A stretch of 38,920 bases of DNA from Cylindrospermum sp. FACHB-282 (GTDB lineage: Bacteria; Cyanobacteriota; Cyanobacteriia; Cyanobacteriales; Nostocaceae), in NCBI RefSeq assembly GCF_014697195.1, contig NZ_JACJRJ010000053.1, forward strand, positions 1 through 38,920, read 5' to 3'. Of this stretch, positions 10,001 through 38,798 are shown piece by piece. A program made the position numbers and the translations under genes. The notes beneath the pieces were generated by a model, which did not search any database, had not been told where the DNA came from, and saw only the letters and a program-made list of their open reading frames with translations. How positions within the stretch are numbered: position 1 is the stretch's first letter; each line of letters begins with the position of its first letter.

Positions 10001-11015
10001 CCAAGAACTCAAAAGCATCGCCCATCTACACTGGGCTTGGAGTAGTAGCTTATTCATCGCCGCCATTACAGTAAACATCCAAAGCAGCCATTATGTAGGG
10101 TTGACAACTGGAGTATTTTTGATTCGTTATGCTTTATGGCAGGGAAGACAAAATACAACTAATGCCCCAGAAGAAAGAGTTTGGGAATTAACAATCGATG
10201 AAATCTGGGTTTACCTAGGTTTGATAGAAGCAGGTGTTCTCGGTATTTATTTGCAGGGTTTGCCTATAGGGCGTGTGTTTGCTCAACAGTTACTACCTTG
10301 GAATGCTGCGATCGCCTGCTTAGTCGCCTACTTCCTCTACATCCTACCTTGGCAACGTTTAGGTTGGTCAAAAACACCTTGGCAAAGAGCCGCATACATC
10401 CTGCCACTAATCATATTATGGCAAACCGCACTACAAATTAACCCCATCGCCTTAATCATCACAGCAGTATATTACATCTTTCTCGCCAAGGGAGCAGCAC
10501 AATTCCGGTTTACCTATCTCAGCGTAGCCTTGATTAATTGGGCATTATTTTCCTGGTTTTATAATTTTTTACGCTTGACTGATCCTTTGTGGTACATCAC
10601 ACCCATCGGCTTATCACTGCTATATATTGCCCAAGTAGATCCCCAATTGACACCACGAGAATCTAAAGACAGTCGCCATAGTCTGAGAATGTTTAGTAGC
10701 GGCTTAATTTGTGCCTGGGCAATATTATTTCATCAAAACGCAGCTTGGATACCCGGAATTTTCAGCCTCATCGCCATTTTTGCCGGATTAGCCTTGCGAG
10801 TACGGGCTTTTCTCTACGTTGGCACAGCCACCTTCTTCATCACCAGTATTTATCAAATGGTGTTATTCAGCTTCCAATATTCCTTTCTAAAATGGATTGT
10901 TGGCTTGCTAGTCGGCATCCTACTAATTTACATCGCCGCCAACTTTGAAACCCGTCGCGCCCAAATAAGTATCCTACTCCGCAACGCCAGTGAGGAATTT
11001 CAGCAATGGCAATAG
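7080..11015 (+). CDS. Very large polytopic membrane protein of unknown function
   Basis: 1311 residues. The first ~100 are soluble and probably cytoplasmic: an amphipathic N-terminal module (LLEGLDRLLRLGLISDAQVR), then an Ala/Pro-rich linker. From about residue 110 to 1290 the chain is almost continuous hydrophobic helices (for example LSVRWLLFLGLFLVVLSS and LLVGILLIYIAANFE), I estimate more than 30 spans with short loops and few charged motifs. The LLRLGLISDAQ module recalls the N-terminus of DUF2157-type membrane proteins, a weak link. It has no recognisable transporter, kinase or glycosyltransferase motif. ATG 7080 is the first start in a long open frame; no clear ribosome site is visible. 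Codon use and HIP1 content are ordinary for the genome, so it looks native. It is co-directional with the sigma/anti-sigma pair but separated by 280 bp with a hairpin. Confidence 0.85.
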   Translation: MSSPLDRPLTLQIKLPSSHPQLLEGLDRLLRLGLISDAQVRKICREHLTCHVAFKSLAAPKPQAMVATSDPVEALPVAAVAPAKRPSETPVKPGSPSFVSSMLQSLVAELSVRWLLFLGLFLVVLSSGVLAASQWERFPPAGQYGVLLAYSLSFWGFSFWADRQNNLRLTAQTLLIVALLLVPINFWAMDSFRLWQNPVNWIVMAIATLILSWMTISLCNNRTVRTNSPVGKLPLVNILGLSYLQWGWNLSGFPLIAVYLAMIGTTIITVYQNQNLPNSQENQGTQRNRLNISLSATVIIYALLVLLVRAIFVAGVDVTQLGLAVGICGWLVTWLAQKNLTSSASTQAGSGVENGISSNSSPTPDLIGERLGGILLFLGWVVSVITQPLQAIVVSGLGLWVCSRRLQRDSLQNDLAAIFFIGLQTIWLGWRLVPAELQQAGIAIGTNLTNSQNAPWALLGIALFPYIILMVALTDRLHRTQKRELAIFGEQLTLLLGVCLTSIALINPTLRSLNLLFSTITLAIVTQRRPASPPPLVYLTHITGVLTLGAMINWLLPTLSREIWASILLVVMLAEWGFSLGEGLWRRSAWYIGLALATVNFALLLGNTEITWNRVIYIQNYWAIIWLITPLALTGLASRTTFQRTTNSYLSLLAVGVAQLLTLFSPGTRLIGLGVAVVVMFLNTRYLRNQTSAVITIGYSLSFIGALLWMLVPQLGLAGWFVVLALAILSLWLGATALIRQGSELAVIYAAASDKWAIALCSLELLTLTLHSVLLYQGFATTGIVYLIATAITLGAIIYRSWRKSTNRAFYSIGWCLELLVAQGLGFGEYSIIRIAIANIALGLTTQFFGEWWRRRYQLESLPNSFHILPLIYGAFSVLLRFTTFTDWTGFCTLGVALIIIGVGRRRESFKPLLYLGMIGVSISAYELLFYQMSQATGGAIGDGLIAMSALGTSIMYAYRILSPWLISYFRLTPQELKSIAHLHWAWSSSLFIAAITVNIQSSHYVGLTTGVFLIRYALWQGRQNTTNAPEERVWELTIDEIWVYLGLIEAGVLGIYLQGLPIGRVFAQQLLPWNAAIACLVAYFLYILPWQRLGWSKTPWQRAAYILPLIILWQTALQINPIALIITAVYYIFLAKGAAQFRFTYLSVALINWALFSWFYNFLRLTDPLWYITPIGLSLLYIAQVDPQLTPRESKDSRHSLRMFSSGLICAWAILFHQNAAWIPGIFSLIAIFAGLALRVRAFLYVGTATFFITSIYQMVLFSFQYSFLKWIVGLLVGILLIYIAANFETRRAQISILLRNASEEFQQWQ

Positions 11016-20412: not shown

Positions 20413-23400
20413 CTATTTTTCTTGCTTTTCTAATTCTGCTAATTTCTTGTTAGCAAAATCGCGCACTATCTCATCTGGGTCATTTTCTACCCTATTGCGC
20501 AACAGTGGTAGAGTTTGGGAATGCTTGGGATATTGCTTGATGATTATCTCAAGTGCAACTCGCCGAGGATTGTTGTTCAAAGGACTATGACTATCCTCAA
20601 AGGGGTCATTGACAGCACAATTGTAGAACAATTCAAACATTTCCGGCTCATCTTTAAAACCCCGCGCTAATTCTTGGACTGCTCTACTTCGCACATCGCT
20701 ATCATCAGAGGTAGCGCATTGTTTAAGGATGGGTAAAGTGTCAGGGTCATCTTTGAAACCCCGCGCTAATTCTTCCACTGCTGTACCTCGCACAATCCCA
20801 GAATCATCAGAGGTAGCGCATTGTTTAAGGATGGGTAAAGTGTCAGGGTCATCTTTGAAACCCCGCGCTAATTCTTGCACTGCTGTACCTCGCACAATCC
20901 AATTATCACCAGAGGTGGCAAGTTGTTTGAGGAAGGGTAAAATGTCAGCGTCATCTTTGAAACCCCGCGCTAACTCTCGCACTGCTGTAAGTCGCACAAT
21001 CCCAGAATCATCGGAGGTAGCGCGTTGTTTAAGGAAGGGTAAAATGTCAGCGTCATCTTTGAAACCCCGCGCTAACTCTCGCACTGCTGTAAGTCGCACA
21101 ATCCCAGAATCATCGGAGGTAGCGCGTTGTTTGAGGATGGGTAAAGTGTCAGCGTCATCTTTGAAACCCCGCGCTAATTCTTGCACTGCTGTAAGTCGCA
21201 CAATCCCAGAATCATCGGAGGTAGCGCGTTGTTTGAGGATGGGTAAAGTGTCAGCGTCATCTTTGAAACCCCGTGCTAATTCTTGGACTGCTGTACTTCG
21301 CACAAACTCATTATCATCAGAGGTAGCGCGTTGTTTTAGCCAAGATTTTGTCTTTGGGTCATCTTTCCAAGTGGTTGCAACTGTGGTGATTGCTTGAGTG
21401 CGAATCTTCTGGACTAATTTTTTTTCTTCATCTCGATAAAAGTCATAATAGTAATTGATGTCATATTTAGTTAAATCTTTTAGCGCATCAAGTAACTTAT
21501 CAGATGTTGACTTAATTGCCTGGCTATTTCTCACTTCTAGAAGACATTCAGCCGCTAAAAAGAGGTTGATGAACTTTTCCTCTTCTCCATTTTGAGATAT
21601 TAAATAATCTATAATCTCTCCAGCAAATATTGGTTCAACCATTCCCGCAATTAATCGCAAAACTTCATGCCAAGATTCATCTTGCCAATGTTTGCCAAAA
21701 ACTTCTTGCTTGAGTTTTTCAATTGAAAGCGTTTGCGTTTCTTTAAATTGCCAAATAAACTCACAAGCACAGAAATATTCTAAAAATGTCCGATGAACAA
21801 AAGCATAGCAATCTGCACCTACAAAACACAAGATAAAGTTGCGAGTCCGTAATTGATTAATCATTACTTTTGCAACTTCTCTGGGTTTATCAACTTCTGA
21901 TTTTTTGAGAGAATCAATCAGAACTTTTTCTAAATCACTTCTACTAATTAAGTTGCCAGATAACCCTTGATCATTTGCCTGCATTTTGTAGGCTACCTGA
22001 CGCAGGATCGCTTGTTTATCTTTGTAATCAATAATTTTTGAGTCTATTCTAGCATCTTCCACTAAAGCGCGTTCCACATCCCATTGATGTAGCAGTACCC
22101 GCGATGCTTGGTTATAAAGTTCTGGTCTATCTCTTGGTAATTCTTGGTGACGGTTTAGAATTGCCATCATTGTTAATAACAGGGGATTTCCTGCAAGTTC
22201 CTTAATAGATTTTGAGGTATTAATTGCCCTTTGCAATCGCTCCTGTTTTTTAAATTTATCTGCCTCATCACTGAAGGTTAAATCATGCCAGCGGGTGATA
22301 AAATCTTGAATTTGTTCTGTCTCTAAATCTTGCAGCATGAAGTGACTAAACTCGGCATCTCGCAACCGTTGTGGTTTGTAGCCAATGACGCGAGAAGTCA
22401 CAATTACCCGCGCATTAGGGTACTCGTTAGTAAAGCGATGAATAGCTGTAATTACATCTTCTCGCTTCCCTGGATCAAAAACTTCATCTAAGCCGTCAAA
22501 CATCACCAAAGCGTTACCAACTTTTAGCTGTTCATGTAATTGATGTTGATTGAGATGATGAATTGCACCACTGCATTGATGGAAAAATTCTAGGAAGTTT
22601 TTACAATGTCCCTCTTCTCGATTTCGCATATAAGTTCGTAATTCGATTAATAAGGGTATTGGCTGAGAAATTACATTGTTGAGAGGTGATTCTGCCCAAT
22701 TCAAAGCCAGGAATTGCAACAAGGTAGATTTGCCTGAACCGGGATCTCCCAAAATCACTATATATTTATAACTTCGCTTATCATTAATAATATCTAAAAC
22801 TAGGCGGATTGGCTGTTCAAAATAAACTCGTTTGTGGCGTTCTAACTCTTCTAACTTAATTTCTGCTTCTAATTGGTCACTTTCTCGCAGGCGTTTTTGG
22901 TGTTCTTTGGGTATTTCGTGGACTTGTGGCAATAATTCACGGATTTCTCGCACATTTTGAGCGACGAATATTCGCCATAGTTTCAATTCGTTATATGCAG
23001 AACCATTTGTATCTAAACTATCTAATTTGATGTTGCTGTAGCACTCTTTAATTCCTTCTTGATATTTCTCTAAGTCAAAATTAGGTATTATTCCGGCAAT
23101 TGCCTTAGTGTTTTGCTGAATTACTTCTAAGTTTTGGGAATCTAGTATAGCGCGTAAATCCTCAGATTCGCGGATAATGGCTTTAACTTTACTGAGATAT
23201 GGCTTAGAAACTTGTTTCCAGTTAAAATCTTCTGGCAGTGATAATAATTTAAGCTGATTCCAGATAGTTGCTAATTTGCCATAATCTATGTTTTGGTAAT
23301 CTTCTTTAAAGGCGCTTCCCAATACCTCTTGAACAGATTTATCTTTGAGAAATTGCTTTAACGGTTTGGTGTAGTTTTTTAATTCTGCTTCGGGAACATC

Positions 23401-23625
23401 TGCAACTTCTAACTGCTGCTGTACTAGTTGCAAAAATTCTTTCAGTGCTTTACCCGCAGCAATTTCTATAGGTTTCTTTTTGGGTAGTAAAACATTGTTG
23501 AGTGAGCCTTTTAATAAATCTTTAGCCCAATCTTTAGCGGTATCTTTGGCTAAGTCTTCTAAAATGGGCTTAAAAACAAATCCGACAGCCTGAGTAACTC
23601 CCCAAACGAATAACCAGTCAACCAT
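20413..23625 (-). CDS. NACHT-domain NTPase with C-terminal HEAT repeats
   Basis: 1070 residues, a STAND-class ATPase. Residues 1-270 form a helical N-terminal region (FKPILEDLAKDTAKDWAKDL and onward) as seen in many bacterial NACHT proteins. The NACHT core has Walker A GDPGSGKST with Lys299, Walker B LVMFDGLDEV with Asp377, Asp380 and Glu381, VIVTSR after it, and helical winged segments (ELAGNPLLLTMMAILNR; FVHRTFLEYFCACEF). Residues ~742-995 are seven to eight 34-residue HEAT-like repeats, followed by a divergent repeat. Bacterial NACHT proteins (bNACHT, Avs) are established antiphage sensors in which the C-terminal repeats bind the trigger; defence is therefore a reasonable inference, not shown. 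No fused nuclease or TIR effector is visible, so output would rely on the N-terminal helices. The gene lies in a HIP1-poor segment. Confidence 0.88.
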   Translation of the reverse strand: MVDWLFVWGVTQAVGFVFKPILEDLAKDTAKDWAKDLLKGSLNNVLLPKKKPIEIAAGKALKEFLQLVQQQLEVADVPEAELKNYTKPLKQFLKDKSVQEVLGSAFKEDYQNIDYGKLATIWNQLKLLSLPEDFNWKQVSKPYLSKVKAIIRESEDLRAILDSQNLEVIQQNTKAIAGIIPNFDLEKYQEGIKECYSNIKLDSLDTNGSAYNELKLWRIFVAQNVREIRELLPQVHEIPKEHQKRLRESDQLEAEIKLEELERHKRVYFEQPIRLVLDIINDKRSYKYIVILGDPGSGKSTLLQFLALNWAESPLNNVISQPIPLLIELRTYMRNREEGHCKNFLEFFHQCSGAIHHLNQHQLHEQLKVGNALVMFDGLDEVFDPGKREDVITAIHRFTNEYPNARVIVTSRVIGYKPQRLRDAEFSHFMLQDLETEQIQDFITRWHDLTFSDEADKFKKQERLQRAINTSKSIKELAGNPLLLTMMAILNRHQELPRDRPELYNQASRVLLHQWDVERALVEDARIDSKIIDYKDKQAILRQVAYKMQANDQGLSGNLISRSDLEKVLIDSLKKSEVDKPREVAKVMINQLRTRNFILCFVGADCYAFVHRTFLEYFCACEFIWQFKETQTLSIEKLKQEVFGKHWQDESWHEVLRLIAGMVEPIFAGEIIDYLISQNGEEEKFINLFLAAECLLEVRNSQAIKSTSDKLLDALKDLTKYDINYYYDFYRDEEKKLVQKIRTQAITTVATTWKDDPKTKSWLKQRATSDDNEFVRSTAVQELARGFKDDADTLPILKQRATSDDSGIVRLTAVQELARGFKDDADTLPILKQRATSDDSGIVRLTAVRELARGFKDDADILPFLKQRATSDDSGIVRLTAVRELARGFKDDADILPFLKQLATSGDNWIVRGTAVQELARGFKDDPDTLPILKQCATSDDSGIVRGTAVEELARGFKDDPDTLPILKQCATSDDSDVRSRAVQELARGFKDEPEMFELFYNCAVNDPFEDSHSPLNNNPRRVALEIIIKQYPKHSQTLPLLRNRVENDPDEIVRDFANKKLAELEKQEK
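20640..21370 (-). repeat. 102-bp tandem coding repeats (HEAT units)
   Basis: The CTTTGAAACCCCG motif recurs at 20751, 20853, 20955, 21057, 21159 and 21261, an exact 102-bp period, with degenerate flanking units at 20652 and 21363. The units are nearly identical in DNA (KDDADTLPILKQRATSDDSG type, then IVRLTAVQELARG), implying recent expansion or gene conversion. Confidence 0.95.
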
Positions 23626-25640: not shown

Positions 25641-28283
25641 TTAATAATTATTTGGTCGGGCTAGATTTTTGAACTTTGTAAACTGTGGATCGAATAAAAG
25701 TTTAATGGTTCCCGTCGGGCCGTTACGGTGTTTAACCACATTTACTTCTGCAATTCCGCGTTCGGGTGTATCTGGTGTGTAATATTCATCGCGGTATAAC
25801 ATGATTACCAAATCCGCATCTTGTTCTATTGAGTTATGGACTATGATGTTATTCGCAATAAAATTATGCAAGCTAGGAACTGTTAAATCGTAAACTTCTT
25901 CTTGACCATCAGGCTCGATTGAGATAATTTCATCCCAGTAAATATCGCTGTTGGACAAGATAGCCATATCATTTGATTGGACAGCTTCTGCTACTCTTAA
26001 AGCACGTTCTCGACTTAAGTTGCACTTATAAAGAGTTGTTCCACAATATGCTGTTCCAATAGCTGCTTGCATTTGTCGTGTTGTAATACCAGCTAACTGC
26101 ATTGCGGGAATAGCGTACATCTTCCAAACTTCTGTTGGTATTACATCTCTATTAGTATTAGCAACACAAGTTTTAATATGCTCCACAATTTCTCCCATCG
26201 ACTGGCACTTGTAGCTTCCTATAGCACCAATTTGTTGAGCAAATAATTCGATATCAGATTTACCTGTTATGACTACGTGGTATTGATTTCGACCTTTGCC
26301 GGATTGTGGAACCATTTTTAACCGAGCGTTAATGCCAAGCCTTAACAGAAGCGATTGTACATCTGCTGCTAACTTCTCACTACTGCTGGCATAGTAGGCA
26401 ATAGGACGTAACCTTTTACCTGAAACTAGCTTAATAGAACCATCAGTACTCCATAAATGGCGCAGGAAAAGAGCAATTGCTTCTTGGGGTTGTTCAAAAA
26501 CTTGGACTGGGATAAATTTTTCGTAAGACCTCAAGCCAAATGCGTCCATAGAATCTAGCCATTGAGCAACTGGATTTCTAGTATTACGACCCAGAGGTAG
26601 ACTGGAAGCAAGATAAACCTGATACCAATTTCTTTCTTTGTTAACCCGTGGGGAGATAGCGTTACCAAATACTTCTAGAGAAAGACAGGTAACTATGTTA
26701 GCCAAATCCTCTTCTCTCGTTGTGTATTGGATGGCATGACGAGGTAAAGTACATCCATCTCCAATCAAATGTCCAAGAAGTGCTAATTGGGGATGAGTCA
26801 TTGTTTGACAAGCAGAACTGCCAATATGGCGAGGAATTGCTAACCTGTTACCTTCTTTTAATTCATCTAGTCGTTTCCATCCTTTGATAGTTAAGAATTT
26901 ATGATTTCCAGTGGCTCTAATAGAGCGACCTAGACGAGTTTTAAGCTTAAAGACAGGTTTTTTACCAGTTGAAAAAGCATGATTTACAGTAGCAGGTTCA
27001 AGCTTTAATGTTTCTTCATTCAATGCCCAGACTTCAAAACCAGATTTACCTACCAACTCTTTAATTGGAACTCGCTTTCCACTACTTGCAATTGTTACTA
27101 AACTATCACCTGTTAAACAACCAGATTCGCGCAAATCAGATAAGATCGGGCGTTTATTGGTGCGTGCTTCCACTCCTCGACTTAACTGAGATAGAGCAAT
27201 AATGGGAACAGATAATTCACGGGCTAAACCTTTGAGTTGACGCGTAATTTTTGATAATTCTTGAACGCGATTATCACCGGCTCCTTCCATTAATTGCAAG
27301 TAATCTATGACAATTAATCCCAATTCCATTCCCTGTTCTGCTTGCAGTCGCCGTGCTTGACTACGCATTTGGTTAACTGTAATATTCGCTGTGTCATCAA
27401 TATAAATTGGCATCTCTGAGAGCATACCAATAGCACGACTTAACGGTTCCCATTGAGTTTGGCTAAGGCGTCCACTCCGCAGATAACTACTTTCAATTTG
27501 CGCCTCGCTAGCTAATAAACGTTGCACTAATTGCTCTTTTGACATTTCTAAACTAAAAATAGCAACTGGGAATTTATAACCTGCAGCAATATTATGAGCG
27601 ACGTTCAAGCAGAAGGCCGTTTTCCCCATTGATGGCCTAGCAGCAACGATAATCAAATCAGAACGCTGAAAGCCGCCGGTCATAGCATCTAAATCATAAA
27701 AGCCGCAGGGAATACCTGGTAGGGCGATACCTTGATTTCGAGCTTCAATATCTTGGAAATTATTAATCAGGGTATCGGCGATGTGAACTAAGCCTGATTG
27801 GGGACGTTCTTGGGTGACGCCAAAAACTTTCTGTTCTGCTTGGTCGAGGACAATTGGTAACTCGGTTTCTGTTTCGTAACCGAGATGGACAATTTCGCCA
27901 CCGGCTTTAATTAACCGCCTTCGCAGGTATTTTTCCATCACTAACCCTGCTAAGGCGTCGATGTTAACTGCTGAAACGGTTCTTTCTACTAGAGTTGCTA
28001 ATTTATTTATGCCGCCAATGAGGGTAAGCTTATCGTTGTCAGCTAGCCAACTGGTGACTGCGAGTAAGTCTGTGGGTTTACCTTGGGTGTGAAGGCGTAG
28101 GGCTGCTTGATAGATTTGTTTGTGAGCGCTAATGTAAAAAGCTTCTGGAACTAGGCGATCGCTAATTCGACCTACTGCTTCTGGATCTAGTAAAATTCCC
28201 CCCAAAATCGCTTCTTCTGCCTCAATGTTTTGGGGTGGGAGGCGATCGCTACCATTGCCTTTAAAACTCAGTTCTTCAGCCAT
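25641..28283 (-). CDS. dnaB: Replicative DNA helicase DnaB with intein
   Basis: 880 residues before splicing; 451 after removal of the 429-residue intein, the normal DnaB size. The helicase unwinds DNA at the replication fork as a hexamer. The N-terminal domain starts LPPQNIEAEEAILGGILLDP. The RecA-like core has Walker A ARPSMGKTAF near 212-221, GLIVIDYLQLM (Walker B), and IALSQLSRGVEAR; the insertion is after SDLRESG. The C-extein resumes SIEQDADLVIMLYRDEYY, then VVKHRNGPTGTIKLLFDPQF. All helicase motifs are intact once spliced. It lies 174 bp downstream of rplI, a conserved neighbourhood; a stem at 28408-28440 separates the two. Confidence 0.97.
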   Translation of the reverse strand: MAEELSFKGNGSDRLPPQNIEAEEAILGGILLDPEAVGRISDRLVPEAFYISAHKQIYQAALRLHTQGKPTDLLAVTSWLADNDKLTLIGGINKLATLVERTVSAVNIDALAGLVMEKYLRRRLIKAGGEIVHLGYETETELPIVLDQAEQKVFGVTQERPQSGLVHIADTLINNFQDIEARNQGIALPGIPCGFYDLDAMTGGFQRSDLIIVAARPSMGKTAFCLNVAHNIAAGYKFPVAIFSLEMSKEQLVQRLLASEAQIESSYLRSGRLSQTQWEPLSRAIGMLSEMPIYIDDTANITVNQMRSQARRLQAEQGMELGLIVIDYLQLMEGAGDNRVQELSKITRQLKGLARELSVPIIALSQLSRGVEARTNKRPILSDLRESGCLTGDSLVTIASSGKRVPIKELVGKSGFEVWALNEETLKLEPATVNHAFSTGKKPVFKLKTRLGRSIRATGNHKFLTIKGWKRLDELKEGNRLAIPRHIGSSACQTMTHPQLALLGHLIGDGCTLPRHAIQYTTREEDLANIVTCLSLEVFGNAISPRVNKERNWYQVYLASSLPLGRNTRNPVAQWLDSMDAFGLRSYEKFIPVQVFEQPQEAIALFLRHLWSTDGSIKLVSGKRLRPIAYYASSSEKLAADVQSLLLRLGINARLKMVPQSGKGRNQYHVVITGKSDIELFAQQIGAIGSYKCQSMGEIVEHIKTCVANTNRDVIPTEVWKMYAIPAMQLAGITTRQMQAAIGTAYCGTTLYKCNLSRERALRVAEAVQSNDMAILSNSDIYWDEIISIEPDGQEEVYDLTVPSLHNFIANNIIVHNSIEQDADLVIMLYRDEYYTPDTPERGIAEVNVVKHRNGPTGTIKLLFDPQFTKFKNLARPNNY
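25833..27119 (-). other. Full-length DnaB intein with LAGLIDADG endonuclease
   Basis: 429 residues (389-817 of the precursor). Cys1 begins CLTGDSLVTIASSGKRVPI; block B is RSIRATGNHKFLTI. The two dodecapeptide blocks of the homing endonuclease are LLGHLIGDGC and LRHLWSTDGS. The C-terminus is LTVPSLHNFIANNIIVHN followed by Ser+1. The insertion point (RESG / SIEQDAD) and exact length equal those of the well-studied Synechocystis DnaB intein, so splicing is expected. Nucleophiles Cys1, penultimate His, Asn429 and Ser+1 are all present; acid residues in both endonuclease blocks (D) are retained, so the nuclease may be active. Confidence 0.95.
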
Positions 28284-30225: not shown

Positions 30226-31269
30226 ATGACTCCACTTGTTACGATAATTGTTACCTGTTTTAATCAAGCTAGCTACTTAGAACGCTCGGTTAAAAGCGTA
30301 CTATCACAAACATTTACTGACCTTGAATGTATTATGGTAGATGATGGTTCTACTGATAACACTCAAGAAGTTGTCAAGCAATTAATGAATCTAGATTCAA
30401 GAGTAAGCTACTTCTATAAAGAAAATGGCGGAGTGTCTTCAAGTCGTAATTTTGGCATTAAACAGGCACAAGGCAAATGGATTCAGTTTCTAGATGGAGA
30501 TGATTGGATTCACGAAAATAAAATAAAATTTCAATTAGATCATCTAAGTGACTTGCATGACGAAAACAATACTGTTTTTTATACAGATTATGAACGGGTA
30601 TTCATAGACAGAGAACAACAAATCATCAACAGACAGGAGAATATAGTTGGTTCTTTGTCAACAGACCAATTGATAGAGCGATTACTCATCCCTGATTTTT
30701 TAGCTGATTCTCCATTTCCCTTACTTCAGCAATGTCTATTGATGAGTAGAGATATTCTTAATAAAAAGTTATTTGATGAGAATTTGAAAGCTCTGCAAGA
30801 TAGAGATTTTACAGTAGACATTTTACTTTTAGGGGCGAATTTTGTATACACCTCGTTAATCGGAGCATATTATACAAAACATCAGTCTAATAGAACTAAT
30901 AACTGGCCTTACATGAAAGCTTATTACATTTTGCTCTACGAGACGGTGTCCAGTAAGCATCATGATTTGATCCCTTTATGCCAAGTAGGGATAGATTTTT
31001 TAATTAAAGAGGCAATTAGAGAAAAAGAGCCAGAAAATTTTGCTCGGCTAATTAAAATTTTTTCCCCTCCTTTGTATTTGTTAAATAAAAAAATCAAAAT
31101 TAATCATAGCTCTATACTCAAGTTGATTTATCAAACTAGGTTAATTATTCCCAGCTTTGTACTCTATGAAAAATATCGAGGCCCCCGCTCTCAAAAAATC
31201 ATATCTATTTTTTCCTACTTCATCAATTTTTTCAAAAGACCAAATAACAGTTATATCAGTAGTGACTAA
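30226..31269 (+). CDS. Family 2 glycosyltransferase
   Basis: 347 residues. The GT-A fold is clear: LVTIIVTCFNQASYLERSVK, VLSQTFTDLECIMVDDGSTD, NGGVSSSRNFGIKQAQGKWI, QFLDGDDWI with the DxD-type metal site at Asp90-Asp93. It should transfer a sugar from a nucleotide donor to a growing glycan at the inner face of the membrane. The C-terminal 130 residues are basic and amphipathic (PPLYLLNKKIKINHSSILKL), suggesting peripheral membrane contact. It is the first gene of the cluster; the next starts 12 bp downstream. Donor and acceptor are unknown. Codon use is AT-rich like the rest of the cluster. Confidence 0.93.
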   Translation: MTPLVTIIVTCFNQASYLERSVKSVLSQTFTDLECIMVDDGSTDNTQEVVKQLMNLDSRVSYFYKENGGVSSSRNFGIKQAQGKWIQFLDGDDWIHENKIKFQLDHLSDLHDENNTVFYTDYERVFIDREQQIINRQENIVGSLSTDQLIERLLIPDFLADSPFPLLQQCLLMSRDILNKKLFDENLKALQDRDFTVDILLLGANFVYTSLIGAYYTKHQSNRTNNWPYMKAYYILLYETVSSKHHDLIPLCQVGIDFLIKEAIREKEPENFARLIKIFSPPLYLLNKKIKINHSSILKLIYQTRLIIPSFVLYEKYRGPRSQKIISIFSYFINFFKRPNNSYISSD

Positions 31270-31281
31270 AGCAACTAATAT

Positions 31282-32439
31282 ATGAAAGGAAAAGTTTCGT
31301 TAGTTGTGAGTGACTTGTCTGGAGGAGGCTCAGTTCGAGCCTATTTACTGGCTCAAGTCCTAAAAAAAATCGATTATGACGTAGAGGTTGTAGGCTTTTT
31401 ATTTGGTCAGGAATTGTATGCCATTCCTCCTGTAGGTATACCAGTAGTAGCTATTGATGGCAAAAACTATCCTGAGTTTTTTAGATCAGCTAAAAATCTT
31501 TGGCAAAAACTAGATGGCGATATTATTTATGCGATAAAACCTAAACCAACAAGTTTTGGTGTATCTCTACTACATAAATTAACCACCCGTCGTCCTTTGC
31601 TTTTAGATATGGACGACTGGGAACTTAGCTGGCACGGAGGTTTTGAATGGAAGTATCGTCCCAGTCTAAAGCAGTTTGCCAGGGACATTCTTAAGCAGGA
31701 TGGTGTATTGAGATTTCCCGATCATCCACTTTATCTCCAATGGATAGAAAGTTTAGTATCTCGTGCCAATGGGATTACGATAGATACTCAGTTTCTTCAA
31801 GACCGCTTTGGCGGTGTTTATGTGCCTAATGGCAAAGATACTGCGATGTTCGACCCTGACAAATATAATCCTAATGTCAGCAGAGAGGATTATGGTCTGG
31901 CGAACTATCGAATTCTGATGTTTCCTGGAGCACCAAGACCTCACAAAGGGGTTGAAGATGTTTTAATAGCCTTAGATCAGTTGAATCAGCAAGATTTAAG
32001 ACTAGTAATTGTGGGTGGTAGTCCTTACGATGATTATGATGATCGGTTAATTGAAAAATGGGGGCGTTGGATCATCAAATTACCAAAGTGTCCTGTAGAG
32101 GTTATGCCTGAGGTTGTAGCAGCTGCTCACATTGTGGTTGTTCCCCAGCGAGATAACGTAATTGCTCGCGCCCAATTTCCTCTAAAGTTGACAGATGGGA
32201 TGGCAATGGCTAAACCTGTTTTATCAACGCGAGTGGGAGATATTCCCGAAATTTTAGCAGAAACTGGTTATCTAGTTGATCCTGGTTGTCCCGAACAAAT
32301 TGCTGCACAAATTCAACTAATTTTTGCAGATTTAGAGCAAGCAGAGGAGCGAGGTAAAAAGGCTAGAAAAAGATGTGTAGAAAAATATAGCTTAGAGGCT
32401 ATGGCATCTACCCTATCTGAGTTAATTTCCAGTTTGTGA
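31282..32439 (+). CDS. Family 4-type glycosyltransferase
   Basis: 385 residues with a GT-B fold. The N-terminal Rossmann domain begins VSLVVSDLSGGGSVRAYLLA. The donor-binding half has RILMFPGAPRPHKGVEDVLI (GT4-like G-x-x-x-x-x-K-G), LVIVGGSPYDDYDDR, VVPQRDNVIARAQFPLKLTD, GMAMAKPVLSTRVGDIPEIL and a final E-ILAETGYLVDPG. The EX7E pattern typical of GT4 is altered here (ARAQFPLKLTDGMA), so it is a divergent member. It is 12 bp after the GT2 gene and in the same direction. It likely extends the same glycan. No signal peptide or membrane span. Confidence 0.88.
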   Translation: MKGKVSLVVSDLSGGGSVRAYLLAQVLKKIDYDVEVVGFLFGQELYAIPPVGIPVVAIDGKNYPEFFRSAKNLWQKLDGDIIYAIKPKPTSFGVSLLHKLTTRRPLLLDMDDWELSWHGGFEWKYRPSLKQFARDILKQDGVLRFPDHPLYLQWIESLVSRANGITIDTQFLQDRFGGVYVPNGKDTAMFDPDKYNPNVSREDYGLANYRILMFPGAPRPHKGVEDVLIALDQLNQQDLRLVIVGGSPYDDYDDRLIEKWGRWIIKLPKCPVEVMPEVVAAAHIVVVPQRDNVIARAQFPLKLTDGMAMAKPVLSTRVGDIPEILAETGYLVDPGCPEQIAAQIQLIFADLEQAEERGKKARKRCVEKYSLEAMASTLSELISSL

Positions 32440-32563: not shown

Positions 32564-34810
32564 ATGTCTAACAGCAAACTACTACTTAAATTTGCTAAAC
32601 CTTATCCATGCAGGATATTCTTCACAATCTTGTTTGGATTTTCTGGTGCTTTGTTTAACGGTGTGGGTACAACCCTGATTGTGCCAATAATTCTGCAAAT
32701 TGTGGGTCAACCTGTAGATTTAACAGGCGCTCCGCCAATTATTAAAGCTCTTGTATCTCCCTTTGATCATGTTCCAGAAAGTTACCGCCTAGCGGTGATG
32801 GCTGCATCAATTGTATTTACAATTCTTTTAAAGAATTTAGCTAGCTATGTCGGTACCTTGGTGTCAAGTTCTTTAACGCGAACGCTGACATCAGATATGC
32901 GAGAAGCAGGCTTGAAGTTGTTACTAGAAATTGACATAGATTATTACACCAAGATGAAAGTTGGTGATCTAATCAACAGCCTTGGTGGCGAAATTAGTCG
33001 TGCTGCTAGTGCCATAGGTGGTTTGATCAAACTAATTATCCTAGCAATTACGATTTTAGTTTTTGTGGCTTTGTTGCTGTCAATTTCCTGGCAGTTGACC
33101 ATTGTGACTACAGCTTTGTTATCTTTGGTCACCTTAGTAAATCAGTATGCAATTTACCGTTCAAGAGATTTTGGTGTACAGCTTTCGGAGATGTCTAAAG
33201 CTTATTCCATTTCTGTGTTAGAAATGCTCAATGGAATTCGCCTAGTCAAGTCAAATGGGAATGAAGACAGAGAATATCAACGGATTACAAAACTAATTCG
33301 CGACAGAGAGAGAGCAGATTTTCAATCTCAGATGAATTCTGAGGTGATTACACCACTCAGCGAAGTGACGGGGGTTATAGCCTTAATACTAATTGTATTT
33401 TTGGGTCGCGCCTTATTTGCCGACCAGATTGCTTCAGTCTCAGCCGTTTTGATTACATATTTATTGTTGTTACTGCGACTACTACCGTTTATTTCTCAGT
33501 TAAATAGTATTCGCAGTAGCTTTGCCAATACTTCTTCTAGTGTGAATATTGTTGCTGAATTTTTACGAAAGGATAATAAGCCGTTCATGGGAAGCGGTAT
33601 GATTCCTTATCAGAAATTACAGCAGGGAGTACATTTTAATCACCTTTCTTTTTCCTATCCTAATCATCAAAACATAGTACTTCGGGATGTAGATTTATAT
33701 TTACCACGGGGTACTACACTGGCTTTGGTGGGTAGTTCTGGTGCTGGTAAATCGACAATGGCAGACCTTTTGCCCAGATTTTATGACCCCACATCTGGCT
33801 GTATTACCATAGATGGAATAGATTTGCGGGAGTTCGATTTAAAATCCCTACGTCAGGCGATGGGAATTGTCAGTCAAGATACGTTTCTCTTTAATGACTC
33901 GGTAGCCAACAATATTGGCTATGGGAGACCAGATTCCACTGATGATCAAATTCTTACAGCAGCCAAGCGAGCAAACGCCTATGAGTTTATTAGCAAATTA
34001 CCCCAGGGATTTGACACCATCATTGGCGATCGCGGTGTCATGTTATCTGGTGGACAAAGGCAAAGAATTGCGATCGCCCGGGCACTGCTCCAAAATCCGG
34101 AAATTCTGATTTTAGATGAAGCTACCAGCGCTTTAGATACGGTTTCCGAACGCTTAGTACAAGCTGCACTTGATGACCTAAGTCGCGATCGCACAACCCT
34201 AATCATTGCTCACCGTCTATCTACAGTCCAAAAAGCCGATCAAATCGCCGTCTTAGATCAAGGAAGTGTAGTAGAGATTGGCACCCATCATCAACTTTTA
34301 CAAAAGGGTGGTTACTACTCACGCCTTTACTCCATGCAATTTGCTGACCATTCTGAAGTTTCCACCAGACGAAATCCCAACTTTAACCGGATTTCTCACG
34401 AACTACGGACACGGCTTAACTCAATGATTGGTTTCCTCGGATTATTAGTTGATGATATGGTAGACAATTCCCAAGAGCGGCAGGAATTAATTGACGAATC
34501 ATACAATTCAGCCTTAAAAGTTCTCAACGCCATTGATGTCTTGGACGATGTAGTTAACCTGAGAATGACCTGGCAATTATCCTCAGATATAGACCAAAAT
34601 CACAATGGAACTAGCCAGCATCAAAACTTTAGTCAAATTTCTGATGAGTTTCGCCTACGTCTCGATCCTCTCCTTAACTCTCTGCGCTTGTTAGCCGATA
34701 AATTAGAATCCAGACCCCAAGAACAAAATCAATTAATTGCAGAAGCTTATCACTCTGCTATTTACCTGCTAGATACATTAAAGCTTTTTGAGCATAGAGT
34801 TTACTTCTAG
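32564..34810 (+). CDS. ABC exporter with tandem HisKA-like C-terminal extension
   Basis: 748 residues. Residues 1-330 are a six-helix type I exporter domain (IFFTILFGFSGALFNGVGTT and onward). Residues ~355-595 are the ATPase: Walker A GSSGAGKST (Gly390-Thr398, Lys396), Q-loop VSQDTFLF, signature LSGGQRQR from Leu494, Walker B ILILDEAT with Asp518/Glu519, H-loop His550. This half matches MsbA/HepA-like polysaccharide or lipid exporters of ~600 residues. The extra ~150 residues contain two 59-residue copies of a histidine-kinase DHp-like domain (606-664 and 688-746) with no HATPase domain. Between a GT4 and a GT10 gene, it is the presumed flippase for the cluster's glycan. The exporter call is firm; the HisKA call rests on the SHELRT...LNS motif and repeat alignment. 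Confidence 0.93.
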   Translation: MSNSKLLLKFAKPYPCRIFFTILFGFSGALFNGVGTTLIVPIILQIVGQPVDLTGAPPIIKALVSPFDHVPESYRLAVMAASIVFTILLKNLASYVGTLVSSSLTRTLTSDMREAGLKLLLEIDIDYYTKMKVGDLINSLGGEISRAASAIGGLIKLIILAITILVFVALLLSISWQLTIVTTALLSLVTLVNQYAIYRSRDFGVQLSEMSKAYSISVLEMLNGIRLVKSNGNEDREYQRITKLIRDRERADFQSQMNSEVITPLSEVTGVIALILIVFLGRALFADQIASVSAVLITYLLLLLRLLPFISQLNSIRSSFANTSSSVNIVAEFLRKDNKPFMGSGMIPYQKLQQGVHFNHLSFSYPNHQNIVLRDVDLYLPRGTTLALVGSSGAGKSTMADLLPRFYDPTSGCITIDGIDLREFDLKSLRQAMGIVSQDTFLFNDSVANNIGYGRPDSTDDQILTAAKRANAYEFISKLPQGFDTIIGDRGVMLSGGQRQRIAIARALLQNPEILILDEATSALDTVSERLVQAALDDLSRDRTTLIIAHRLSTVQKADQIAVLDQGSVVEIGTHHQLLQKGGYYSRLYSMQFADHSEVSTRRNPNFNRISHELRTRLNSMIGFLGLLVDDMVDNSQERQELIDESYNSALKVLNAIDVLDDVVNLRMTWQLSSDIDQNHNGTSQHQNFSQISDEFRLRLDPLLNSLRLLADKLESRPQEQNQLIAEAYHSAIYLLDTLKLFEHRVYF
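34379..34801 (+). other. Two HisKA-like repeats fused to ABC exporter
   Basis: Copy A (residues 606-664) begins NFNRISHELRTRLNSMIGFL with His612 at the phospho-acceptor place; the usual Pro of HELRTPLN is Arg. Copy B (688-746) begins NFSQISDEFRLRLDPLLNSL with Asp694 in place of His. The copies align without gaps over 59 residues (about a third identical, ending Y-x-S-A-x-x-L-[LN]). No N, G1 or G2 ATPase boxes follow; the protein ends seven bases after copy B. Confidence 0.7.
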
Positions 34811-34911: not shown

Positions 34912-35871
34912 ATGACCATCAAAACCGTTGGGATGATTAGCAGCTATTCGGCTCTAGCTAAAAGTGCAGCTTGGCTGTGGCAACAAACCCCAAATCACTT
35001 TGGAATTTGGGATAATATACAAATGCACGCCCTAGAGGAAAAACCAGATTTTCTGGTAATGTATCAGTTTGATTTCCCCCAACCAGCACGACAAAAATCT
35101 TGGTTAGATAGTTTTCGTAAACAGCAGAAAAAACCAGCAGTAGATATCAATTCTCGACTGCGTGGCCTTAGCAAAGAGCGAATTATTTATTTACTCAGAG
35201 AACCGCCATTAGATGAAATTGTTGAAATCAATAAGCATAATTATCAAGAAGCTCAAAAGTATTGTGGTTATGTTTCCGGCCCTGATGATTTGGCCCCCAC
35301 TCCCAACTATATGTCAGCGATTTGGTATCACTCAAATTCCTTTCGGGATTTAAATGAAATGCCATGTACCCAAAAGGTTGCTACCTGTAGTTGGGTGACT
35401 TCGGGAATTAACCGTACAGCCAACCATCGCCAGCGTTTAGACTTTTTGCAGTCTTTGCAATCTAGTGGCTTTAAGTTTGATTTATATGGGCGTAACTTAC
35501 CCGAATGGGCAAAACCTTCCGGAGAATTAGGTAATAAATGGTACGGCATGGCACCGTATTATTATAATTTGGCTATCGAAAACTATGCTGAGAACAATTG
35601 GTATGTGAGTGAGAAACTTTGGGATAGCTTACTTGCCTGGTGTTTGCCAATTTACTATGGTGGCCCAGCAGCTGATAAACTATTGCCACCAGGTAGTTTT
35701 TTGCGGTTGCCTAGTTTGGATGAGAAAGGTATTGCTTACATTCAAGAAGTGACTGCAACACCTGATGCTTGGTATGCTGCTAAGGATGCGATCGCCGAAG
35801 CCCGGCAAATCATCTTACATAAGCTAAATCTGCTTAACTGGTTATCAGACTTTGTTGCTCAAAACTCATAA
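34912..35871 (+). CDS. GT10-family (fucosyltransferase-type) glycosyltransferase
   Basis: 319 residues. The C-terminal half carries the GT10 donor site: YNLAIENYAENNWYVSEKLW, DSLLAWCLPIYYGGPAADKL and LPPGSFLRL (Glu234-Lys in EKLWDSLLAW); this is the alpha-1,3/4-fucosyltransferase core motif that binds GDP-fucose. The N-terminal half (MISSYSALAKSAAWLWQQTP) is the acceptor domain. No signal anchor is present, as usual in bacteria. By family it should add fucose or another GDP-linked deoxysugar to a glycan; the actual donor is unknown. Its stop is four bases before the next ATG, so translation is tightly coupled. Confidence 0.88.
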   Translation: MTIKTVGMISSYSALAKSAAWLWQQTPNHFGIWDNIQMHALEEKPDFLVMYQFDFPQPARQKSWLDSFRKQQKKPAVDINSRLRGLSKERIIYLLREPPLDEIVEINKHNYQEAQKYCGYVSGPDDLAPTPNYMSAIWYHSNSFRDLNEMPCTQKVATCSWVTSGINRTANHRQRLDFLQSLQSSGFKFDLYGRNLPEWAKPSGELGNKWYGMAPYYYNLAIENYAENNWYVSEKLWDSLLAWCLPIYYGGPAADKLLPPGSFLRLPSLDEKGIAYIQEVTATPDAWYAAKDAIAEARQIILHKLNLLNWLSDFVAQNS

Positions 35872-35875
35872 ATTT

Positions 35876-36859
35876 ATGAATGGTATTTGTACCCTTGCCA
35901 ACGATTATGTTTTCGATCAATTGGTGGCTTTGCTCAACAGTATTGATGTGATCTTAGGTGCTGAAACCCCAGTCTGTATTTATCCTTTTGATGACCAGAC
36001 ACAGCGGATTGCTGAGGAAATAGCTACGCGCCCTAATGTATTTTTTTACGATGATCAAGAATCCATCAATCGCTGGGATCAATTTATGCTGGCAGCAGCA
36101 CCAGATAGATTGAATCGCAGCAAATCCCGCCTTTATGGTGCTCACCGCCGTTTTTGTGCCTTTGACGGGCCTTTTGATAAGTTTATCTATTTAGATGCAG
36201 ACACCCTGGTGATGAACTCACTAGCAGCAGTGTTTGAAAAGCTAGAATCTTATGATTTCATTGTCTACGATTTCCAATTTAAAGATGTTAGTAAAATCTA
36301 TAATGTTAATTCGCTAAAATTACTAGAAGTTTTCCCTCAACAACGCATTAATTCAGAAATATTTTGTTCAGGATTTTATGGCGCAAAACGGGGGCTTTTT
36401 AACCCAAATCAAAGAGATTTACTGATATCTCATTTACAAACTGGTGAAACAGAAATTTTGTATGGCGGCGCTGGAGAACAACCGCTGCTCAACTACATGG
36501 TAATGAGGTCTAATCTTGCTAGTTATAACTTTGCCCAGCAACTGCCAGATACAGAAATAACGGGATGTTCTGCCACCTCAAAGCATTTTGAAGAACGAGA
36601 TCACATTCTTTATGACAAGGGTAATCGCCTAACTTATATCCATTATATTGGCATTCCTCCTAACATCAATCAAGCAGTGTGTGCTGGAGAGAATATTGAG
36701 TTTCCCTATCGGGATTTATTTCTTTACTATCGTTACCTGCATGAACCAGATAAGCGTCCAGTTTTTAAAAATCCTCCTCAGCCTTATGACGCTCCACCAC
36801 CGACAGCGAATTTACTCACAAGAGCTTTGCGTAAATTAAAATTAATTAAACAAGGATAA
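35876..36859 (+). CDS. DxD glycosyltransferase-like protein, paralog 1
   Basis: I start at ATG 35876 (MNGICTLANDYVFDQLVALL), because paralog 3 begins the same way; an earlier in-frame start would overlap the GT10 gene. 327 residues. A GT-A/GT8-like nucleotide-sugar site is seen: FDGPFDKFIYLDADTLVMNS with Asp107-x-Asp109, later FCSGFYGAKRG, GGAGEQPLLNYMV, and HYIGIPP near the C-terminus. It resembles an uncharacterised cyanobacterial family often found in tandem in glycan loci. It probably transfers a sugar to the same glycan as its neighbours. No membrane span. The next gene begins three bases after the stop. Confidence 0.82.
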   Translation: MNGICTLANDYVFDQLVALLNSIDVILGAETPVCIYPFDDQTQRIAEEIATRPNVFFYDDQESINRWDQFMLAAAPDRLNRSKSRLYGAHRRFCAFDGPFDKFIYLDADTLVMNSLAAVFEKLESYDFIVYDFQFKDVSKIYNVNSLKLLEVFPQQRINSEIFCSGFYGAKRGLFNPNQRDLLISHLQTGETEILYGGAGEQPLLNYMVMRSNLASYNFAQQLPDTEITGCSATSKHFEERDHILYDKGNRLTYIHYIGIPPNINQAVCAGENIEFPYRDLFLYYRYLHEPDKRPVFKNPPQPYDAPPPTANLLTRALRKLKLIKQG

Positions 36860-36862
36860 TTT

Positions 36863-37753
36863 ATGATTCGGGGAATTTATATTGTAGCCAATGATCGCGT
36901 CATCGAGAATGCGATCGCCTTACTAAATAGTATTCGTTACTATGACCAAGAAGTTCTGATTTATCTCATCCCTTTTAATGAAAATTATCACAAAGTTGCT
37001 GATAAAATTACTACCTTACACAACGTACAAATTTTCCCAGATTTAGAACTGATTGAGAAATTCACTCTTTCCATAGGCGAAATTTTTGATCGAGATTTCC
37101 TCGCCTTACCCAACAAAATGCGTAAACTGGTAGCATGGTTTGGGCCTTTAGATGAATTTATTTATATTGATACTGATATTGTCGTTTTTGAAAAAATCGC
37201 CGACAATTTAGACAAACTTACAGAAGTTGATTTTTTCTGTTGTGATTATCATCATGCCAATGACAAGCTAAGAAATATCTTTTCACCCTTGGTAAGAGAG
37301 CAGCAAATTTTTACAGATGCCCAACTAGAAGACGTTTTTAATAGTGGCTTTTGGGCTTCCAGAAAAGGAACTATTACCGAACAACAGATGGATGAAGCTT
37401 TGCGCGAATGTGCTACCCATCGTGAATACTTTGATTTTTCTGAAGGAGTTACAGACCAACCGATTCTTAATTATCTCGTTCTCAAGTTAATTGCCAAACG
37501 TGGTAATCTCGTCAAAATTCCTGGGGGAGGCCCTGGTAGTTGGGCAGGTTCGCGCAATTTCCAACAGCAAGGGTACACTCTCTATGACCGAGGGCAGCCA
37601 CTAAAATATCTCCACTGGGCGGGGACAAAAATGAAAATTGGTAGCCCCTATTGGCAATTATGGGAACACTATCGCTATCTCCATCAGGGTAAATTCGCCA
37701 TCATCCCAAAACTTACTCGTCGTTTATTTCCCTTTGTTGTGGCCCGCAATTAA
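36863..37753 (+). CDS. DxD glycosyltransferase-like protein, paralog 2
   Basis: 296 residues, ATG preceded by ACAAGGATAATTT. It shares the plan of paralogs 1 and 3 but is more diverged: GIYIVANDRVIENAIALLNS at the start, FGPLDEFIYIDTDIVVFEKI with Asp103-x-Asp105, then VFNSGFWASRKG, GVTDQPILNYLVLKL and LHWAGTKM near the end. The retained start motif, DxD, QPxLNYxV and H-x-A/I-G order makes common ancestry clear. A different sugar specificity is likely. No signal peptide. Confidence 0.82.
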   Translation: MIRGIYIVANDRVIENAIALLNSIRYYDQEVLIYLIPFNENYHKVADKITTLHNVQIFPDLELIEKFTLSIGEIFDRDFLALPNKMRKLVAWFGPLDEFIYIDTDIVVFEKIADNLDKLTEVDFFCCDYHHANDKLRNIFSPLVREQQIFTDAQLEDVFNSGFWASRKGTITEQQMDEALRECATHREYFDFSEGVTDQPILNYLVLKLIAKRGNLVKIPGGGPGSWAGSRNFQQQGYTLYDRGQPLKYLHWAGTKMKIGSPYWQLWEHYRYLHQGKFAIIPKLTRRLFPFVVARN

Positions 37754-37769
37754 TATCAGGAGTATTCCC

Positions 37770-38798
37770 ATGATTGATGGTATTTACACCCTAGCTAATG
37801 ATGTTGTCTATGACCAACTAGTTGCGTTGCTCAACAGTATAGAAGCTAATGCTGGTAGAAAAATTCCTGTTTGTATAATTCCATATAATGACCGGCTAGA
37901 TAAAGTAAAGGCAGAGATTGCAACTAGAAAGAATGTCACCTTATTTGAAGACGCTACTTCCATAGCTCGCTGGGAGGAGTTTGGCTCTCGTATCTGGAAC
38001 GCTCACCCAAGAGCATTAAAACTGTGGCAAGAATATGGCTTACCAGCGAATTATCGTATAGAAAGACATCGCAAACTTTGCTGTCTGGATGGTCCCTTTG
38101 ACAAGTTTATCTTCTTTGACGGAGATACGCTATTGATGAAATCACTAGATGATGTTTATCAGAAGTTGGAAAAATATGATTGGGTCACGAATGACTTTCA
38201 ATATAAATCGGATTTGAATTATATTTTTGACTGGTCAGAAGACAAACTAGGGGAAATTTTTACTGAAAAAAACATCGGCAATAGTATTTTTTGTTCTGGT
38301 TGGTTTGCTTCTAAAAAGCATATTTTCGATGATGCTACATTAGCAAACTTATTAGAAAAATTAGAAGCAGGTGAAGCTGATGTCTTGGCGTGGGCAGATT
38401 CTGATCAAACGGTTATCAACTATTTGGTTTTACGAAGCGGAATTTCTTATTATAACTACGCCTATAACGGTGAATCGACTGGTTGCCATTGGGCTTCAAA
38501 ATTTGATGTTGTAGATAATATTCTTTACGACCAAGGGGAACCCATAACCTATATTCACTATATGAGTATATCTTCATCAGACTTTGCGCGCCTTTGTGGG
38601 GGTGAAGATGTTAATATTCCTTATCGTGACGTTTTTCTATATTATCGCTACTTAAAATCCCCAGCAAACCGCCCTCAAAGGTTTACACGCCCAAGCCAGC
38701 TAACGCTGCTACAAAATTATACTAAACGTTTTTTTAACCAAAAAGTTAGTAATATTAAACTGAAGTATCGGAACTTCAAGAATAGAATTAATCAATAA
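37770..38798 (+). CDS. DxD glycosyltransferase-like protein, paralog 3
   Basis: 342 residues from ATG 37770, chosen because ATCAGGAGTATTCCC gives a strong ribosome site and the N-terminus (MIDGIYTLANDVVYDQLVAL, LNSI) matches paralog 1; a longer frame from 37638 would overlap paralog 2 by 116 bp. Motifs: LDGPFDKFIFFDGDTLLMKS with Asp117-x-Asp119, NSIFCSGWFASKKHIF, DQTVINYLVLRSG, ITYIHYMSI. It is closer to paralog 1 than to paralog 2. Its basic C-terminal tail (NYTKRFFNQKVSNIKLKYRN) could contact membrane. It is the last gene before the window end; the cluster may continue. Confidence 0.82.
   Translation: MIDGIYTLANDVVYDQLVALLNSIEANAGRKIPVCIIPYNDRLDKVKAEIATRKNVTLFEDATSIARWEEFGSRIWNAHPRALKLWQEYGLPANYRIERHRKLCCLDGPFDKFIFFDGDTLLMKSLDDVYQKLEKYDWVTNDFQYKSDLNYIFDWSEDKLGEIFTEKNIGNSIFCSGWFASKKHIFDDATLANLLEKLEAGEADVLAWADSDQTVINYLVLRSGISYYNYAYNGESTGCHWASKFDVVDNILYDQGEPITYIHYMSISSSDFARLCGGEDVNIPYRDVFLYYRYLKSPANRPQRFTRPSQLTLLQNYTKRFFNQKVSNIKLKYRNFKNRINQ

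Follow-up and report, generated by a model that had tools for sequence, protein, structure and literature searches.

A histidine-kinase-like DHp tail on a cyanobacterial ABC exporter, and its possible role as a helical clamp

C-terminal accessory elements as such are already known among ABC transporters. According to the accessible portions of the literature, the C-terminal helix of BmrA, the zipper-like motif of TmrAB and the regulatory domain of MalK all lie behind the NBD and matter either for activity or for the steadiness of the NBD pair. Removal of the entire C-terminal helix of BmrA abolishes both ATPase and transport activity; the final part of this helix is flexible and dispensable, most mutants dimerise like the wild type, and the essential part seems to act mainly via contacts for ATP handling, not via dimer formation (accessible part of PMC11774805). 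On that text, the mode of action of the BmrA helix makes it a partial precedent for a dimer clamp. The zipper-like C-terminus of TmrAB stabilises the NBD dimer (accessible part of PMC7756269). These elements consist of a short helix, a zipper-like motif or another domain, and in the accessible portions of their descriptions none is presented as derived from a kinase DHp. The literature also describes two-component machinery that is physically joined to an ABC transporter, namely BceAB-BceS (accessible part of PMC8534201), in which BceS is a separate kinase that senses through the transporter, whereas the exporter reported here carries an ATPase-less kinase fragment within the transporter chain. 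A full-text literature search, with most subscription papers lying outside its scope, found no description of an ABC exporter fused to a DHp tail, and no such fusion was found in the accessible parts of PMC1183210 and PMC4594306. What is new in the present case is an ABC exporter whose C-terminal accessory element appears to come from a disabled kinase dimerisation domain.

The window, that is, the whole stretch of DNA analysed, comprises 38,920 nucleotides from Cylindrospermum sp. FACHB-282, a cyanobacterium with a genome of 6.1 Mb whose closest named relatives are Nostoc species. It contains an ORF of 748 amino acids (32564-34810) in which ABC_membrane is followed by ABC_tran and then by a C-terminal tail. 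This ORF and its neighbours are laid out as follows:

30226-31269, plus strand: upstream GT2-like glycosyltransferase (Pfam)
31282-32439, plus strand: upstream GT1-like glycosyltransferase (Pfam)
32564-34339, plus strand: ABC exporter core, an MsbA/HepA-like half transporter (TMD at about residues 1-340, NBD at about residues 341-592)
34340-34375, plus strand: short linker leading from the NBD into the tail (about residues 593-604; pLDDT below 50 at 596-603 in the full-length model)
34376-34585, plus strand: hairpin 1, a pseudo-DHp (HisKA-like) with His612 and with Arg617 at the site of the H-box proline (PF00512, predicted helices)
34604-34801, plus strand: hairpin 2, a divergent copy with Asp694 at the His position (repeat score, hhalign, predicted helices)
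34912-35871, plus strand: downstream GT10 (fucosyltransferase family), the next ORF after the exporter (Pfam)
34912-38798, plus strand: downstream block made up of the GT10 gene and three mutually similar genes without a Pfam family

The preliminary description of this DNA had placed a complete MsbA/HepA-like exporter in front of the tail, and the exporter part is indeed complete, with ABC_membrane (79 bits) and ABC_tran (118.3 bits) both above their Pfam cut-offs in a single chain, as in type IV (MsbA-like) ABC exporters. The common TMD-NBD half-transporter layout is shared with the MsbA and HepA exporters, which are also the top NCBIfam models, both stopping at residues 593-595. The scores of the HepA model (NF045513, 580.8 bits against a cut-off of 725) and of the MsbA lipid A exporter model (TIGR02203, 456.7 bits against 602) lie below the equivalog level, so the exporter is a relative of both and a member of neither. 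In the same genome, the next two most similar exporters have cores 37-38% identical to this one and are tail-free, with 599 and 619 codons.

The stretch 34379-34801, singled out at the outset, corresponds to residues 606-746 of this ORF. SHELRT begins at residue 611 and SDEFRL at residue 693, which bears out the placement of His612 in the first repeat and Asp694 in the second. The repeats had been given as gapless and 59 residues long; they are gapless, but the repeat is somewhat longer, with 23 identities over 67 residues when the tail is shifted by 82. Its ungapped BLOSUM62 score is 115, whereas 2000 shuffled versions of the tail reach 56 at most. The absence of a HATPase domain was likewise confirmed, since a Pfam scan found none in the exporter ORF, which ends at 34810 and is followed by the GT10-family gene; the protein thus lacks the HATPase_c after the DHp by which a histidine kinase is recognised. 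A split gene or a frameshifted HATPase was considered and ruled out, because the ORF is open and the next one encodes a glycosyltransferase that is kept in synteny.

On sequence evidence, the tail is a true relative of HisKA/DHp by descent, as had been proposed. When the last 156 residues are scanned alone, PF00512 matches hairpin 1 with 34.4 bits (E 2.4e-8, cut-off 26.9); the full-length protein yields 24.9 bits, under that cut-off, and hairpin 2 receives no Pfam call. Of 59 two-hairpin tails, 58 show the match at E<=0.01; of 15 single-hairpin tails, 14 show it at E<=0.1, and one of the latter, taken as a detailed example, scores 17 bits and lies under the cut-off. Alignment by hhalign to the DHp segments of 19 kinases encoded in this genome, chosen by a pattern that includes the H-box proline, gave probabilities of 99.2% for copy 1, 97.2% for copy 2 and 98.9% for a single-hairpin profile built from 30 hairpins, and the profiles of copies 1 and 2 align with each other at 99.5%. 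The top PDB sequence match of the tail profile is the histidine kinase 7n0e (E 3.8e-6); that search also lists unrelated helical proteins at E 0.002 and above, and hairpin 2 by itself is covered by none of its kinase matches. A chance HisKA match is ruled out by the Pfam score of the tail, the alignment to same-genome kinases and the recurrence in relatives. Shared with HisKA/DHp are thus the homology above the Pfam cut-off, the predicted helical hairpins and the core S-x-E-x-R-x(3)-N-x(3)-G, whose S, E, R, N and G are invariant in 26 aligned tails (out of 30 from an unfiltered search); the pattern is unbroken in the two-hairpin tails of that search and shows some exchanges in distant tails. 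Unlike HisKA/DHp, the exporter tail is fused to the NBD of an ABC exporter, has tandem copies and is followed by no HATPase, and it has Tyr for His in many orthologs and no H-box proline.

Closest similarity points to a cyanobacterial GAF-type histidine kinase as the donor. In a hairpin-profile search of 108 genomes, eight further loci were read, seven of them with kinase N and/or G boxes and the eighth (L226) belonging to a further exporter, whose hairpin carries Tyr. The kinases L233 and L236 are among the closest non-exporter DHp sequences found; like L002 from the window's own genome, they are GAF-HisKA-HATPase proteins by domain scan. L233 and L236 have a complete kinase architecture, scoring above cut-off for GAF, HisKA and HATPase_c, and their H-box has both His and Pro; they share with the tail a loop and second-helix pattern, DDMAD..E..EFI..AY.SAL.LLNLI. 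The exporter tail stops about where both kinases run on as DILD.AKIEAG. The hairpin profile also matches short non-exporter frames of about 260-330 codons, among them L003 in the window's genome.

Structure prediction is consistent with the tandem hairpin of the preliminary description. A single-chain AlphaFold2 model of the tail alone has four long predicted helices (mean pLDDT 82.6, pTM 0.75), compatible with a four-helix bundle. The weak full-length model (mean pLDDT 66.9, pTM 0.39) places helices at 605-629 and 636-674 (hairpin 1, the same in the tail-only model) and at 681-711 and 718-747 (hairpin 2). A Foldseek search with the tail model returned generic bundles, with no match at E<=0.001; its top two ranks are poor receptor alignments, and the best sensible match is 6egc, a designed single-chain four-helix bundle (E 0.11, TM 0.59/0.65, rmsd 4.1).

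In the H-box motif a proline stands five residues C-terminal to the acceptor His, whose position lies exposed in kinases. A conserved phospho-acceptor His, as expected of HisKA, is not found in the exporter tails. Among the best 30 of 33 long matches obtained when 386 genomes of the phylum were searched at protein level, an unfiltered set that includes the window, 14 have His at this position, 15 have Tyr and one has Asp. A further set, the best 80 of 125, was fetched with the pattern S[HY]E[ILM]RT[RQ][LM]N, which admits only H or Y at this site. The 30 unfiltered and 79 motif-fetched loci (L050, at a contig end, was left out) make up 109 tails, which read H77 Y31 D1, counts that are biased at these positions by the fetch pattern and by the motif S.E.R...N...G required for residue extraction, which all 30 unfiltered tails passed. 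There is overlap between the sets: L048 is the same protein as L192, the tails of L048 and L049 are identical, and seven other tails are present in both; the 101 distinct tails read H74 Y26 D1. A loose motif was used to read the site in 34 tails from orthologs that are for the most part more distant, giving Y31 H1 R1 F1. The H-box proline is absent from all 109 tails (Q57 R51 E1) and is also missing from the 34. At the matching position of hairpin 2, D is found in 34 of 109 tails, with V, E, I, S, N, Y and others in the rest, and the earlier idea of an Asp copy acting as inactive partner proves too specific.

By parsimony, the acceptor site has changed repeatedly. A quick core tree of 83 rows has many open forks and draws on a set whose fetch pattern favours H or Y; 64 of its rows carry His, including entire Nostoc clades, and the H label requires 9 changes, 5 of them forced by well-supported branches. 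A rooted quick core tree of 80 rows, which uses the same genome's two tail-free paralogs as outgroup, has many open forks too and is flagged for meeting long branches, requires 11 changes by Fitch parsimony and puts Tyr at the root, which argues against an ancestral His that was lost later; the two-hairpin ancestor comes out as H or Y. Because tail and core disagree in some relatives, the changes were also mapped on a tree of the 101 distinct tails with the acceptor column omitted, where 10 are still needed, at least 5 (H) or at least 6 (Y) of them forced, so an artefact of core-tree mapping is discarded. Tyr is present even in L085 (Anabaena sp. UHCC 0187) and L097 (an uncultured cyanobacterium), which adjoin the window clade on the core tree, and His is therefore not conserved among exporters with the same tail. 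The acceptor codons in 108 tails are CAY or TAY except for one GAC, meaning that every H/Y flip amounts to one transition. Judged from these residues, with an acceptor that is Tyr, His or rarely something else and an H-box proline that is gone, the tail has very probably given up phosphotransfer. The site is nevertheless not random, being H or Y in 108 of 109 tails (pattern-biased) and in 29 of the 30 unfiltered ones, and Y in 31 of the 34 distant ones. A purely structural role does not fully account for this near-exclusive choice, and the site may thus have a function in contacts or as a switch.

The number of hairpins varies among relatives. At E<=5.9e-166 there are 77 orthologous rows, and in 72 of them the frame has at least 669 codons, enough for a hairpin. 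Thirty of the 77 rows aside, 39 of the remaining 47 were fetched and read (L198 yielded no frame): 30 carry one hairpin, L189 and L192 (group f20) carry two, L193-L197 carry none, and the f20 paralogs L190 and L191 show one clear Tyr hairpin within a longer tail. This longer tail, of about 265-270 residues in L190 (893 codons) and L191 (877 codons), consists of an extra region of unassigned type, the Tyr-type hairpin and a further stretch. The single-hairpin tail of L182 shows a short duplication of the H-box start, SHELRTRL and then SYEVRTRL, by which His and Tyr versions come to stand next to each other; its in-register acceptor residue is Y. Two of the five tail-free exporters adjoin a GT10-like gene, and the absence of the tail from 5 of 39 orthologs, two of them beside GT10, indicates that it is dispensable for some. 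A tail encoded as a separate gene was looked for by eye in the forward-strand ORFs of at least 60 codons within 1.15-1.26 kb after the five tail-free exporters, and no hairpin was found there.

In six close pairs, dN/dS is 0.16-0.52 for hairpin 1, 0.54-1.14 for hairpin 2 and 0.14-0.15 for the core; by this measure hairpin 1 is under purifying selection and hairpin 2 is loosely constrained. For two farther pairs (with L085 and L097), in which tail dS is 1.7 or saturated, hairpin 2 gave 0.10 in one case and no value in the other. Tail dS in the six close pairs is about half of core dS (0.18-0.31 versus 0.42-0.51). Compared with the window, L052-L055, L059 and L060 have a core identity of 73-74% and a tail identity of 77-79%, and L085 and L097 have 80% in the core and 49% in the tail. 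Such discordance between tail (34376-34807) and core (32564-34339) suggests that tails have been swapped by recombination. The simplest course that would explain the sequences is that one Tyr hairpin was captured early and was later duplicated in the window group and, separately or jointly, in f20, with occasional loss.

The surroundings of the exporter are conserved. Among the best 80 of 125 loci, 79 have a GT1 homolog upstream of the exporter (one on the opposite strand) and 78 have a GT10 homolog downstream; the three-gene group is represented in 77 (the counts of the three genes are not independent), and a GT2 homolog is found in 10; the synteny queries for these loci included no signalling gene. 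The gap between tail and GT10 measures at least 900 bases in 67 of the 77 loci where both were measured, and two ORFs read within it encode group 1 glycosyltransferases, a gene that the window is without. Given these conserved glycosyltransferases, synteny indicates that the cargo is probably a polysaccharide or glycolipid built by the adjacent enzymes.

Elsewhere in the window, the minus strand carries a DnaB-like replicative helicase (25641-28283) with an intein bearing a LAGLIDADG homing endonuclease domain (Pfam); the dnaB match is split into separate pieces in some relatives' loci, e.g., L101 and L116. Also on the minus strand, at 20413-23625, next to a dihydrofolate reductase gene, lies the gene of a 1070-residue NACHT protein with an NNH2 N-terminal domain and HEAT repeats (Pfam), an NLR-like architecture. 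On the plus strand, an ORF of 1311 residues (7080-11015) without Pfam match at E<=1e-5 stands after a sigma-70-family factor and an RskA-like anti-sigma gene.

The reading that we favour, and to which we give a little better than an even chance, is that the exporter captured the DHp hairpin of a GAF-type kinase, that phosphotransfer was lost, and that the hairpin now works as a helical-bundle clamp near the NBDs. Its homology, acceptor loss and copy-number differences are direct observations, and from them we infer the clamp. A kinase's DHp hairpin would have been joined to the 3' end of a glycan-exporter gene, the captured piece being cut about where the kinase would run on into its ATPase domain; phosphotransfer would then have been abandoned and the helix-packing pattern largely retained. 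Ancestrally, each half-transporter would contribute a single hairpin, and the two hairpins would join into a four-helix bundle below both NBDs, keeping them in register or close together, and a bundle located right behind the NBD could tether or align the NBDs. In the window group, where the hairpin is duplicated, each half may hold a self-contained or an exchangeable four-helix bundle.

The preliminary description had named two options. One of them, a four-helix dimer that joins the two halves of the exporter, may well hold; the other was that a separate histidine kinase phosphorylates His612 in trans and so controls the exporter. The intact S-H-E-L-R-T of the window, including the neighbouring Glu, would suit control by phosphorylation, as would the His in 64 of 83 core-tree rows and in whole Nostoc clades, a set biased to H or Y. 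It fits poorly with the loss of His in close orthologs, with Tyr or Asp in 16 of 30 unfiltered relatives and Tyr in 31 of 34 distant ones, with Tyr as root state by parsimony, with the lack of the H-box Pro in 109 plus 34 tails, and with some ten state changes, at least five of them forced by well-supported branches; any His-based function would be absent from the Tyr species or regained in the His lineages. We regard such control as quite improbable, and the sequences make a structural clamp more likely than a phosphorylation switch. A tail without phosphorylation could still serve as a docking platform, the pseudo-DHp binding a candidate partner (a response regulator, a histidine kinase in a heterodimer, or a glycosyltransferase of the cluster) and thereby tying export to synthesis or to signalling. 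Kinase ATPase domains and response regulators dock onto DHp domains, and both the retention of H or Y at the old acceptor site, with the biases already stated, and the conserved glycosyltransferase surroundings are in keeping with this idea, which seems to us unlikely yet deserving of attention. On a far-fetched reading, the site would be re-purposed, with Tyr as a regulatory phosphosite or ligand contact on a captured DHp bundle that gates the exporter, and with the window group as a natural Tyr/His specificity switch; bacterial tyrosine kinases, known from polysaccharide export, offer an example of a route. Finally, the hairpins might be a neutral remnant, a tolerated C-terminal fusion without a function of its own, as the five tail-free orthologs among 39, the faster evolution of the tail protein relative to the core and a hairpin 2 dN/dS near 1 in some close pairs could suggest. 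The hairpin 1 dN/dS of 0.16-0.52 in six close pairs, a frame with room for a hairpin or more in 72 of the 77 orthologous rows and the five positions invariant over 26 tails speak against a remnant, and we think it rather improbable.

Taken at the strength given here, the clamp reading describes a two-component dimerisation domain that would have left signalling for a transporter, a case well sampled by more than 100 distinct tails. Living species show the states of zero, one and two hairpins, all without the H-box proline and often without the His. For annotation, a HisKA match on such tails need not imply a phosphorelay. Exporter tails of this kind also allow a clear-cut test of the ability of a DHp bundle, on its own, to act as the clamp of an ABC exporter.
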